From Loktanella sp. D2R18 (GTDB lineage: Bacteria > Pseudomonadota > Alphaproteobacteria > Rhodobacterales > Rhodobacteraceae), in NCBI RefSeq assembly GCF_003318235.1, contig NZ_QOCG01000030.1, forward strand, positions 310,001 through 374,000: a stretch of DNA of 64,000 nt. Direction: 5' to 3'. The notes beneath the pieces were generated by a model that saw only the letters and a program-made list of their open reading frames with translations, was not told the DNA's origin and searched no databases. The translations under genes were made by a program, and so were the position numbers. Shown here one piece after another: positions 30,437 through 37,076 of the stretch. The first letter of the stretch is position 1. Every line of letters begins with the position of its first letter.

Positions 30437-30488
30437 ATTATGCAAAATACCGCCCTTTGTGATCACACATTTTTTCCATGTGATCACA
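30437..30488 (-). promoter_or_regulatory. sdh operon control region: two TGTGATCACA palindromes plus a -10-like box
   Basis: Perfect 10-bp palindromes TGTGATCACA lie at 30479-30488 and 30458-30467 with 11 bp between them, so their centres are 21 bp (two helical turns) apart. Reading towards sdhC, CATAAT (30442-30437) follows after 15 bp and could be the -10. The same arrangement precedes sucC, and one copy precedes the gntR gene at 48742-49389. I infer that these are operators for that GntR protein. The close upstream position would suit activation. Confidence 0.75.
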
Positions 30489-30852
30489 AATAAAAACTGA
30501 GTTATTTAGTCGGAATACTTAAGGATGATCGCTCACGCCCGGCAATAAGATCGTTAACGCTCGCTTAAGCAACGTCATATCACGACCTACGAACAAAGGA
30601 TAACTACCCCGACATCGGCTCCGCTCAGCGAAAGGCAACTATGAGCCCAACCTTGTCAATATTATGCACCACTACGAATGTCGGCTATCATTCGGCTTTC
30701 AAAAGCCTACAGCAACTAAGGAGGTTTTGAACGGGTTTTAGTGAACGCAAATTGCGATGTTTTACATCGTATCAAGAAGGAGAGCTTTGGATCACTCTTG
30801 ATTGAATGGCTGCCCTCTATAAGTTGAAAGTTGACAGTGAGGAGAATTCGTC
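30489..30852. other. Intergenic stretch without a recognised gene
   Basis: No gene or RNA I can name is seen here between the sdh control region and the short ORF at 30853. It is AT-richer than its surroundings. It includes the word AATGTCGGCTAT near 30677, resembling words in the gap after the tRNA gene. A purine-rich AAGGAGG near 30720 has no start codon with a lasting frame. Confidence 0.4.
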
Positions 30853-31017
30853 GTGATCAACGGTAACTTTAATCACCCAGAATATGGAGCCTGTCGCTTT
30901 ATAGGAAATGCCGGCGACTGGATTGTATTTGAATGTTGGCATTCAAGTGAAAGTAAGTGGGTCCGTCAAACAGAACGGTTAAGCGTTCTGTTAAAACTTA
31001 TTGATGCCAATACATAA
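30853..31017 (+). CDS. Putative 54-residue protein, function unknown
   Basis: A GTG-initiated ORF with GAGGAG at 9 nt upstream, a good ribosome-binding site. It encodes a small protein beginning with the residues INGNFNHPEYGACRFIGNAGDWIVFE, as seen in two adjoining blocks. It contains three Trp and two Cys and has no signal peptide or membrane segment. It stands alone on the plus strand in an 835-bp gap. I recognise no family, and the only support is the start signal and the intact frame. Confidence 0.45.
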   Translation: MINGNFNHPEYGACRFIGNAGDWIVFECWHSSESKWVRQTERLSVLLKLIDANT

Positions 31018-31155
31018 AGTTTGGGATCAACCCTAAAACCACCGTTTATTGAATGCGACCTGTTCTGCCAGAGAACGCCCCAGTGGTCCCCAAATCTAGA
31101 TGCCAAAGCCTCTATGCTGGGTGCGAGCCGCCTACTGCTCCGCTAGAATAACAGG

Positions 31156-32181
31156 TTACTCCGGCATCAAGGCCCAACAATCCAGATCAAGCAGCACATC
31201 GGGGTGATACTTCCCATCGTCCCCACGCAACGCACCCGCCGCGCCTTTGGTCGCGACCAGCCGTAGCCGGATCGCGCCGACTCCCGGCGCAGCTGTTTCA
31301 GCGATGTCCAAAACCTCGGACCATGCCCGCACCGTGTCGCCTGCGAAACATGGATTTGCATGTGCGCCGCCATTCAACGCCACAATCATCTGCGCATTAG
31401 CTAACCCATTGAACGACAGCGCCCGCGCCATTGAAATCACGTGACCACCGTAGATCAGCCGTTTGCCATCTGGTCGATTAGTTGCGTCAAAGTGCACTTT
31501 GGCGGTGTTCTGCCAAAGCCGGGTGGCGAGCATATGTTCGGCCTCTTCAATGGTGACGCCGTCCACATGGTCGATGACTTCGCCGACGGCATAGTCAGAC
31601 AGACGGTGCGGTTCCCCCGCCAGTGCAAAATCATAGTTGCTGAAATCAAGCCCCTCTGGGATCACCAGATCATCCGCCCCAACGGCGCTGTTCAGCGCAG
31701 GGATCACCGTCTCAGGCGCGGGATCATCGCCGCGTTTACGCACCATCACCCAGCGCACATATGACATCAGCACTTCGCCATGCTGGTTACGCCCGGTGGT
31801 CCGCACCCAAACGACACCGCTTTTGCCGTTTGAATTTTGCTTAACCCCGATCACCTCGGACGTGGCGGTGATTGTATCACCGGGCCAAAGCGGCGTTTCC
31901 CAGCGCCCTTCGGCATAGCCCAGATTAGCAACCGCATTTAACGACACATCCGGGACCGTTTTGCCAAATACCGTGTGAAAGGTCACAAGATCATCCAGCG
32001 GGCTAAACGGCAGACCGCAGCTTTGCGCGAATTGATCCGACGAATGCAACGCGTGCCGGGCAGGATAAAGCGCGTGATATAGTGCGCGTTCGCCCATCTT
32101 GATCGTGCGCGGCACGGCATGGGTGATCACATCGCCAACCGCGTAATCTTCGAAAAACCGTCCTGCGTTTGTCTTGCTCAT
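31156..32181 (-). CDS. mch: Mesaconyl-CoA hydratase (MaoC family)
   Basis: A 341-residue enzyme with two MaoC/hot-dog domains, beginning GRFFEDYAVGDVITHAVPRTI. In the ethylmalonyl-CoA pathway it interconverts mesaconyl-CoA (2-methylfumaryl-CoA) and beta-methylmalyl-CoA. The second half holds LATRLWQNTAKVHFD and IYGGHVISMARAL, corresponding to the second domain. It is last in the operon mcl2 - nnrU-like - DUF1737 - mch, with a 4-bp overlap with the DUF1737 gene. Context with ccr and ecm supports the assignment. Confidence 0.93.
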   Translation of the reverse strand: MSKTNAGRFFEDYAVGDVITHAVPRTIKMGERALYHALYPARHALHSSDQFAQSCGLPFSPLDDLVTFHTVFGKTVPDVSLNAVANLGYAEGRWETPLWPGDTITATSEVIGVKQNSNGKSGVVWVRTTGRNQHGEVLMSYVRWVMVRKRGDDPAPETVIPALNSAVGADDLVIPEGLDFSNYDFALAGEPHRLSDYAVGEVIDHVDGVTIEEAEHMLATRLWQNTAKVHFDATNRPDGKRLIYGGHVISMARALSFNGLANAQMIVALNGGAHANPCFAGDTVRAWSEVLDIAETAAPGVGAIRLRLVATKGAAGALRGDDGKYHPDVLLDLDCWALMPE

Positions 32182-32381
32182 TGCTCACCTAACTTCATGT
32201 CCGGTGTGTAGGGCGCGTCGATATCTTTGGTCACGGCCTGCCCGCACCGCATCACGCCATTGGCCTGATCAAACGCGTAGGTGGGGCTGCCGTGCAATTC
32301 CCACCCTTTGGACAAGGCCAAGGACACTTTGTGGCAAAACGCGGATGTGTCATCTTCGGTCAATAAGCGGTAAATTTTCAT
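32178..32381 (-). CDS. DUF1737 small protein
   Basis: A 67-residue protein recognised as DUF1737 from MKIYRLLTEDDTSAFCHKVSLALSKGWELHGSPTY. It has a single compact domain and no signal peptide. It overlaps the start of mch by 4 bp and begins 3 bp after the NnrU-like gene, so it belongs to the pathway operon. Function is unknown. Confidence 0.82.
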   Translation of the reverse strand: MKIYRLLTEDDTSAFCHKVSLALSKGWELHGSPTYAFDQANGVMRCGQAVTKDIDAPYTPDMKLGEQ

Positions 32382-32384
32382 GAT

Positions 32385-35773: not shown

Positions 35774-35932
35774 GGCCACGCCTCTTAAATACCTTGGTTT
35801 CACCCTTTGTTAGCGCCTAACAGGATAATGGACCACATTACAATATGGGATGCCGCGATGCGGCACACTTGCGCAGGCGCGTTCAAAGGCTTACCCAATG
35901 TCGCAAATCGAACCACCAAAGGATCCATTTCA

Positions 35933-36895
35933 ATGGCCAGACCCAAGATTGCTCTTATCGGCGCCGGACAAATCGGCGGCACGCTTGCACACCTCGCTGC
36001 GATCAAAGAACTCGGCGATGTCACATTGCTTGACCTCAATGACGGCGCAGCAAAAGGCAAGGCGCTTGACCTCGCCGAAGCCGGCCCATCTGAAGGTTTT
36101 GACGCCGAAATGGCGGGCACCGCAGATTACGCGGATATCGCAGGCGCTGACGTTTGCATCGTCACAGCTGGTGTTGCACGTAAACCCGGCATGAGCCGTG
36201 ACGATCTTTTGGGCATCAATCTTAAAGTGATGAAAGCCGTTGGCGAAGGCATCGCAACCCACGCGCCAAACGCATTTGTCATCTGCATCACCAACCCGCT
36301 TGACGCGATGGTTTGGGCGCTGCGCGAATTCTCTGGCCTGCCCCACAACAAAGTTTGCGGCATGGCTGGCGTTCTGGATTCAGCACGTTTCCGTCACTTC
36401 CTTGCGGATGAATTCAAAGTCTCCATGCGCGACGTCACCGCCTTTGTTCTGGGCGGCCACGGCGACACAATGGTCCCACTGACACGCTACTCCACCGTCG
36501 CAGGCATTCCGTTGCCTGATCTGGTCAGCATGGGCTGGACGACACAAGACAAGCTGGATGCGATCGTACAGCGCACACGTGACGGCGGCGCCGAAATCGT
36601 TGGTCTGCTGAAAACAGGTTCTGCTTTCTACGCCCCAGCGACATCCGCCATTGAAATGGCAGAAGCCTACCTGAAAGACCAAAAACGTGTTCTGCCATGT
36701 GCAGCCCACGTTGACGGCGCTTACGGGCTGGACGGTTTCTATGTTGGCGTGCCAACAGTAATCGGCGCTGGCGGCGTTGAGCGCGTTGTCGAGATCAAGA
36801 TGAACAAAGACGAGCAAGCCATGTTTGACAAATCTGTCGACGCGGTCAAAGGTCTGGTCGCAGCATGTAAAGACATCGACGGTTCACTGGCCTAA
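35933..36895 (+). CDS. mdh: Malate dehydrogenase
   Basis: A 320-residue NAD-dependent, LDH-like malate dehydrogenase. Landmarks are [18 protein letters not shown] (NAD loop), [14 protein letters not shown] with the substrate Arg, [11 protein letters not shown] and [11 protein letters not shown] with the catalytic His. The ATG at 35933 has AAAGGA upstream and fits the family start. A terminator follows, so it is separate from the suc operon despite lying beside it. Confidence 0.97.
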
Positions 36896-36919
36896 GCGCC
36901 ATATCGCATCGTTTACACT

Positions 36920-36944
36920 AGGGCGCCCCTCGGGGCGCCCTTTT
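36920..36944 (+). terminator. Rho-independent terminator after mdh
   Basis: A perfect 9-bp stem, AGGGCGCCC with GGGCGCCCT, closes a CTCG tetraloop and runs into TTTT. It is 24 bp beyond the mdh stop and separates mdh from the suc promoter region. Confidence 0.85.
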
Positions 36945-37023
36945 GCGTTTCGTATAGCTGACACTACCGCGAATCCCTCTATATAACTAAGTTCCGCGCG
37001 AACAACTTAGGTGACATCAAATT

Positions 37024-37076
37024 TGTGATCACAGCGCAAAAACGTGTGATCACAAATGTTCGATTATGCCCATATT
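37024..37076 (+). promoter_or_regulatory. suc operon control region: two TGTGATCACA palindromes plus a -10-like box
   Basis: Perfect palindromes TGTGATCACA lie at 37024-37033 and 37045-37054. The 11-bp gap gives the same 21-bp centre spacing as upstream of sdhC. CATATT (37071-37076) follows after 16 bp and could be the -10, against CATAAT after 15 bp at sdh. The leader to the sucC ATG would be about 70 nt. The match in number, spacing and distance to the -10 argues for one shared regulator, most simply the GntR protein at 48742-49389. Confidence 0.78.

Follow-up and report, generated by a model that had tools for sequence, protein, structure and literature searches.

Two tricarboxylic acid (TCA) cycle operons in a 64,000-nucleotide stretch of the Loktanella sp. 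D2R18 genome (hereafter the window: positions 310,001 to 374,000 of contig NZ_QOCG01000030.1, forward strand) are each preceded by two copies of TGTGATCACA placed 21 bp apart, one pair before sdhC and one before sucC, and one further copy lies directly before gntR. We consider it likely, with a probability of about three in four, that these pairs are operators of the adjacent GntR/FCD regulator and that they act as a face-dependent upstream activator array for the sdh and suc operons. Its orthologue in Rhodobacter sphaeroides is very probably AkgR (RSP_0981). The reading links a known but little-studied regulator of Rhodobacteraceae central carbon metabolism to a strict and testable promoter geometry, and such an array would show one protein keeping succinate dehydrogenase in step with the 2-oxoglutarate-to-succinate steps.

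Paired sites before sdhC and sucC

All five exact TGTGATCACA sites of the window were found where the first-pass annotation had placed them, namely the proximal (30458–30467) and distal (30479–30488, 21 bp from the proximal site) operators of sdhC, the distal (37024–37033) and proximal (37045–37054) operators of sucC, and the single operator of gntR (49400–49409), none of which is assigned a strand. Ten base pairs separate the end of this lone site from the start codon of the GntR/FCD gene (48742–49389, minus strand), which lies downstream of it. The claim of the first-pass annotation that both operons, lying on opposite strands, share one two-site geometry with an 11-bp gap was likewise borne out, and across the 3,654,129 bases of the genome TGTGATCACA-N11-TGTGATCACA occurred only before sdhC and before sucC. 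Nine exact 10-mers were counted in the whole genome, compared with one match to a reversed control. Five of the nine fall in the window; the four outside it sit within long open reading frames and therefore look like chance occurrences, making them unlikely extra targets on evidence at the level of reading frames. When one mismatch was allowed, the window contained 10 sites against 2.14 expected, and none of 100 shuffles gave at least 10. The one-mismatch sites at 18274, 23615, 28753, 32122 and 50931 were assigned no role, nor was a third GTGATCAC core pair in the genome, spaced by 13 bp, at G000:C1:227381.

The GTGATCAC core of the proximal operators is kept in relatives. A family sample of 296 Rhodobacteraceae genomes was searched for core pairs, defined as two GTGATCAC cores with a spacing of 13 to 43 bp; exact cores were required, so that degenerate pairs are missed, and the genome lists for the pair and for GntR were read by eye. 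Core pairs were present in 273 of the 296 genomes, whereas the reversed control pattern was found at one place. The 21-bp form occurred in 258 of the 296, and 456 of 573 core pairs (a hand count from the tables) were spaced by this distance. Ninety pairs, taken in listing order from 30 loci, 55 regions and 5 class-wide loci, were read in detail: 44 lay before sucC, 39 before sdhC and 7 elsewhere. Spacing among the 83 sdhC and sucC pairs was 21 bp in 76 cases and 20 bp in 7, and the remaining seven were spaced by 13, 18, 18, 21, 21, 27 and 31 bp. Comparison of homologous promoters, which the first-pass annotation had suggested as a check, found the 21-bp pair kept before both genes rather than absent from relatives. 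Twenty rows of the 80 named loci that surround gntR include sdhC or sucC; 11 of these show cores 21 bp apart, one (L122) has a single core, and 8 end before or within ~110 bp of the gene start, which leaves their promoters out of view.

A class-wide sample showed the core pair in all 6 genomes of the family and, outside it, in 22 of 381, with 21-bp spacing in two of these 22 (G421 and G464). In two genomes from another family of the class the core pairs are spaced by 22 bp (G307) and 21 bp (G421); the pair in G421 has a distantly related GntR (30% identity) close by.

The placement of both sites on one helix face, as first proposed, fits their separation by two whole turns, and it also fits the promoters of some relatives in which three sites follow one another at 21 + 21 bp. 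Such triplets can be seen before suc in G252 (L282), G122 (L284) and G170 (L294), and in the named loci of Pseudotabrizicola sediminis (L139) and of a metagenome-assembled genome of Gemmobacter nectariphilus (L148). In L148 a fourth GTGATCAC core lies 26 bp beyond the triplet. Further 21-bp core pairs had no detected sdhC, sucC or gntR alongside (L041 in G157, L219/L279 in G037, L281 and L290 in G263, and L292 in G243); these may be further targets or chance matches. The 2.6-Mb genome G233 contains 11 core pairs at 13–43 bp, of which only 2 are spaced by 21 bp.

Phased A/T tracts and the operator–promoter distance

Positions in the promoters were counted from the first base of the proximal GTGATCAC, and phase was analysed in 39 promoters per operon with 21-bp spacing (38 relatives and the window), 7 relatives with 20-bp spacing being omitted. 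Both sets of 39 show A/T tracts at around +9, +19, +29, +39 and +49, with an A/T share of 0.67–1.0 at the peaks and 0.15–0.31 in the dips between tracts. Phase consistency at periods of 10–10.5 was high (R of 0.83–0.87 for suc and 0.87–0.91 for sdh), with nearly the same phase in the two operons. The column amplitude of the tracts reached 7.4 for suc and 6.5 for sdh, compared with null maxima of 2.9 and 3.3, whereas upstream of the pair it was 1.24 and 0.94, within the null range (maxima 1.52 and 1.53). The 49 suc promoters with the pair were also more periodic than the 18 that lack it (p 1e-4). Within the window, the phased stretch from the sdh operators to the core promoter (30403–30458, minus strand) has a period-10 amplitude of 9.47, above the 99th percentile of window 51-mers (8.84); the suc stretch that corresponds to the phased tracts of relatives spans 37054–37109 (plus strand). 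A replicate in the named loci comprised 3 sdh promoters, too few to serve as a test. Among the matches listed, a TTGCGCCAAAAAACCGCGCC-like block, possibly the site of another regulator, stands between the operators and the core promoter in the sdh promoters of many relatives; GCGCCAAAAAACC was not found in the window.

Of 40 sdh promoters, 39 from relatives and one from the window, 34 have a CGTGAC[AT]-like box downstream of the pair, with its G at +65 to +68 in 29, at +86 to +88 in 3, and at +56 and +77 in one each. In 28 of these 34 a TA follows 22 bases after the G, so that GTGAC[AT]-N16-TA resembles a core promoter of the sigma-70 type. The putative −35 element of the window, GTGACT (30394–30399, minus strand), lies at +67 on this scale and is conserved as GTGAC[AT]; the putative −10 place, GCAAAA, is at 30372–30377 on the same strand. 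In suc promoters a weaker CGTTTA-like box peaks at +55 and TATA-like elements lie most often at +80 (10 of 45), about one turn nearer to the operators. The CATAAT/CATATT box that the first-pass annotation had made part of the geometry does follow the proximal sites of the window, at 15 and 16 bp, but among 83 relatives just 3 carry one or the other hexamer there, and the box was rejected as a conserved element.

In a wider search, a GTGAC[AT] match fell within +58 to +88 in 169 of 296 genomes. Among the 150 rows listed, 129 were at 65–68, 11 at 76–79, 8 at 85–88, and the remaining two at 74 and 81. A suc promoter (G176, locus L212) accounts for one row at 85, and G015 and G270 contribute two rows each, the values 74 and 81 coming from one of the two. 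Nineteen of the 21 outliers lie about one or two turns further out than 65–68, and none of 200,000 uniform draws favoured whole turns as well as these 21 do, kinship being ignored. Taken as sequence conservation, again with kinship ignored, the distances fit the whole-turn restriction of a class I activator. They also provide, at 56, 66, 77 and 87 bp, a ready-made natural trial of helix-face dependence. With the conserved core promoter of sdh starting ~66 bp beyond the proximal core, the pair sits far upstream of the start site; relative to the inferred start sites, the operators would lie at about −88/−109 for suc and −98/−119 for sdh.

Many GntR/FCD proteins are repressors, and the position of the single site before gntR suits repression. 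It could be argued, then, that the pair is a repressor operator from which GntR dimers silence sdh and suc, the A/T tracts and their phasing belonging to the promoter alone. We regard this as quite improbable, since a core promoter ~66 bp away is far for direct occlusion, since whole-turn spacing fits contact with polymerase, and since AkgR is termed an activator in PMC6365646. Repression thus appears less likely at the operator–promoter distance seen, except at gntR itself.

Phased tracts and fixed distances might also be mere inheritance with little functional meaning, given that each operon's promoters are homologous and that kinship is left in by the tests. An explanation of this kind is unlikely: A-runs and T-runs interchange at one place (suc +17 to +22, where 12 of 39 promoters have AAA and 24 have TTT), the sdh and suc operons nearly agree in phase, and distances, where they vary, do so mostly by whole turns.

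The GntR/FCD regulator and the proposed activator array

To compare the distribution of the pair with that of the regulator, a GntR cut-off of E ≤ 1e-70 was used, which was chosen after viewing the table, where values jump from 4.0e-76 to 1.4e-59. A match at this level was present in 273 of the 296 family genomes. Both pair and GntR were found in 270 genomes and neither in 20, with 3 containing GntR only and 3 the pair only (Fisher p 5e-25, a test that ignores kinship). In two of the GntR-only genomes, G035 and G258, sucC is preceded by 21-bp pairs that carry 2 and 3 mismatches, and in the assembly of the third, G139, sucC was not found. Of the 20 genomes with neither, 18 have sucC, and in none of these was a pair within 4 mismatches found. 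A site with at most one mismatch lies within 160 bp upstream of gntR in 23 of 30 near relatives and in 15 of 80 named loci. One relative, G166, has two cores 13 bp apart immediately before gntR (L224), a different spacing at the autoregulatory site. The first-pass annotation had proposed to test binding by the GntR protein, and the co-occurrence of pair and protein agrees with such binding.

Seven matches to the window GntR in the genome overall, together with three draft genomes that have the pair and no good GntR match, leave some room for binding of the palindrome by another regulator, for example another GntR or a CRP/FNR-type protein. We nevertheless think this very unlikely. Pair and GntR are present or absent together, the same site stands before gntR itself in most near relatives, and AkgR is reported with the same motif, GTGATCAC, in PMC6365646. 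CRP/FNR half-sites require a spacer, which the palindrome lacks.

According to the activator reading, two GntR dimers would sit side by side on the pair, two helical turns apart and on one DNA face, some 88–98 and 109–119 bp upstream of the inferred suc and sdh start sites, and when bound would jointly activate succinate dehydrogenase and the sucCD-sucAB-lpd cluster. RNA polymerase alpha C-terminal domains can dock at such upstream A/T distances. The tracts, at inferred positions of about −43, −53, −63, −73 and −83, may therefore offer docking places for these domains, or they may bend the DNA; intrinsic curvature of phased tracts would serve as well as docking. The activator would reach polymerase along the shared face, so that only whole-turn distances would work. 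Cooperativity of the dimer pair is, like binding by the window GntR, a prediction, and negative autoregulation is the most likely role of the single site before gntR.

Several observations weigh against this reading. The Rayleigh and uniform-null tests take no account of kinship, and on a SucC tree (68 rows, 200 columns) the pair needs 10 changes of which supported branches force 1, with 1 of 65 branches starred; the co-occurrence of pair and GntR may thus rest on few evolutionary events. The stretch intended as a control, +63 to +113, proved periodic as well (amplitudes 3.6 and 4.8 against null maxima of 2.0 and 3.0), meaning that the A/T ladder reaches beyond the space upstream of the core promoter and into the promoter itself. 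Individual tracts are missing from many promoters: at +37 to +42, 17 of 39 suc promoters have no run of three A/T bases, and the same holds for 18 of 39 sdh promoters at +46 to +51. In the window, the A/T periodicity of the suc promoter is ordinary (amplitude 6.05, below the 95th percentile of 7.28) and no core promoter is recognisable there at the place conserved in relatives, while the −10 place of sdh is weak, without the TA found in 28 of 34. Genomes G018, G105 and G225, drafts of ~210–320 contigs, carry the pair without a good GntR match, and 65 of the 80 named gntR loci have no upstream site at one mismatch or fewer. Finally, orthology to RSP_0981 was judged via a Cereibacter-like genome, G046, and not via a record named R. 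sphaeroides.

The sdh cluster lies on the minus strand, with sdhC first (29931–30320; the probable start is the ATG at 30320, although the mechanical frame extends to a TTG at 30392), followed by sdhA (27721–29526) and sdhB, which encodes a 2Fe-2S domain (26259–27038). On the plus strand, sucC (37153–38346) heads a cluster with sucD (38947–39828), sucA for the 2-oxoglutarate dehydrogenase E1 (40349–43306), sucB for the E2 (43306–44481) and lpd for dihydrolipoyl dehydrogenase (46338–47726). The probable cognate regulator, encoded by the probable akgR orthologue gntR, is a protein of 215 amino acids with a GntR winged helix-turn-helix and an FCD domain, both above Pfam cut-offs (PF00392, 49.9 bits against 27; PF07729, 65.6 bits against 24.3). 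N136 and H140 of its FCD domain are invariant across 111 aligned sequences. Metal-binding FCD proteins usually have Asp at the first of these places, and ligand binding by the window GntR may for that reason differ from theirs.

Relation to AkgR and other known systems

Given the very probable orthology, the regulon of the window GntR (sdh, suc and kgd) is already known. In R. sphaeroides, RSP_0981 is predicted to control sucCD, sdh and the kgd/2-oxoglutarate dehydrogenase complex, and CceR (RSP_1663) and NtrC are also predicted for sdh, so that AkgR is not the sole input there (PMC4344238). The GntR of G046, a 4.6-Mb genome, shares 94% identity with its Cereibacter ovatus counterpart and 76% with the window GntR. 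In G046, 21-bp pairs precede sucC and the sdhA-sdhB cluster, gntR lies ~0.7 kb behind sdhB, and the gene order fits the R. sphaeroides locus tags 0962–0967, 0974–0976 and 0981 as given in PMC4344238. What may be new is the quantised twin-operator architecture: the 21-bp twin, the triplets, the phased tracts and the quantised distance were not found in the literature passages searched, a set that did not include the main AkgR study (Imam 2015, mBio). The broadest form of the proposal, in which a FadR-type regulator forms a far-upstream array of two, sometimes three, dimers, each taking up 21 bp, and activates polymerase along a phased A/T ladder, as a family-wide, undescribed and quantised geometry of both TCA operons, is put forward tentatively and as less probable than not.

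The window resembles the published AkgR regulon in having sites before sdhC and before sucC heading sucCD-sucAB-lpd and in sharing the motif GTGATCAC; it differs in that gntR sits behind lpd with its own single site. Regulators of the PS417_07240 type, from deoxyribonate clusters of Pseudomonas simiae, likewise have the palindrome GTGATCAC before a gntR-headed cluster, but with one palindrome and for another pathway, and AkgR is 32% identical to PS417_07240 (PMC6365646). Among solved structures, the best sequence match to the window GntR is McbR of Escherichia coli (PDB 4p9f, E 1.6e-17), a distant one. McbR is not known to regulate the TCA cycle. Class I activation and UP-element promoters (CRP, alpha C-terminal domain) combine face-dependent activator positions with A/T subsites phased at ~10 bp upstream of the −35 element. 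Unlike these, the window promoters would be served by an activator of another family, whose twin sites lie further upstream.

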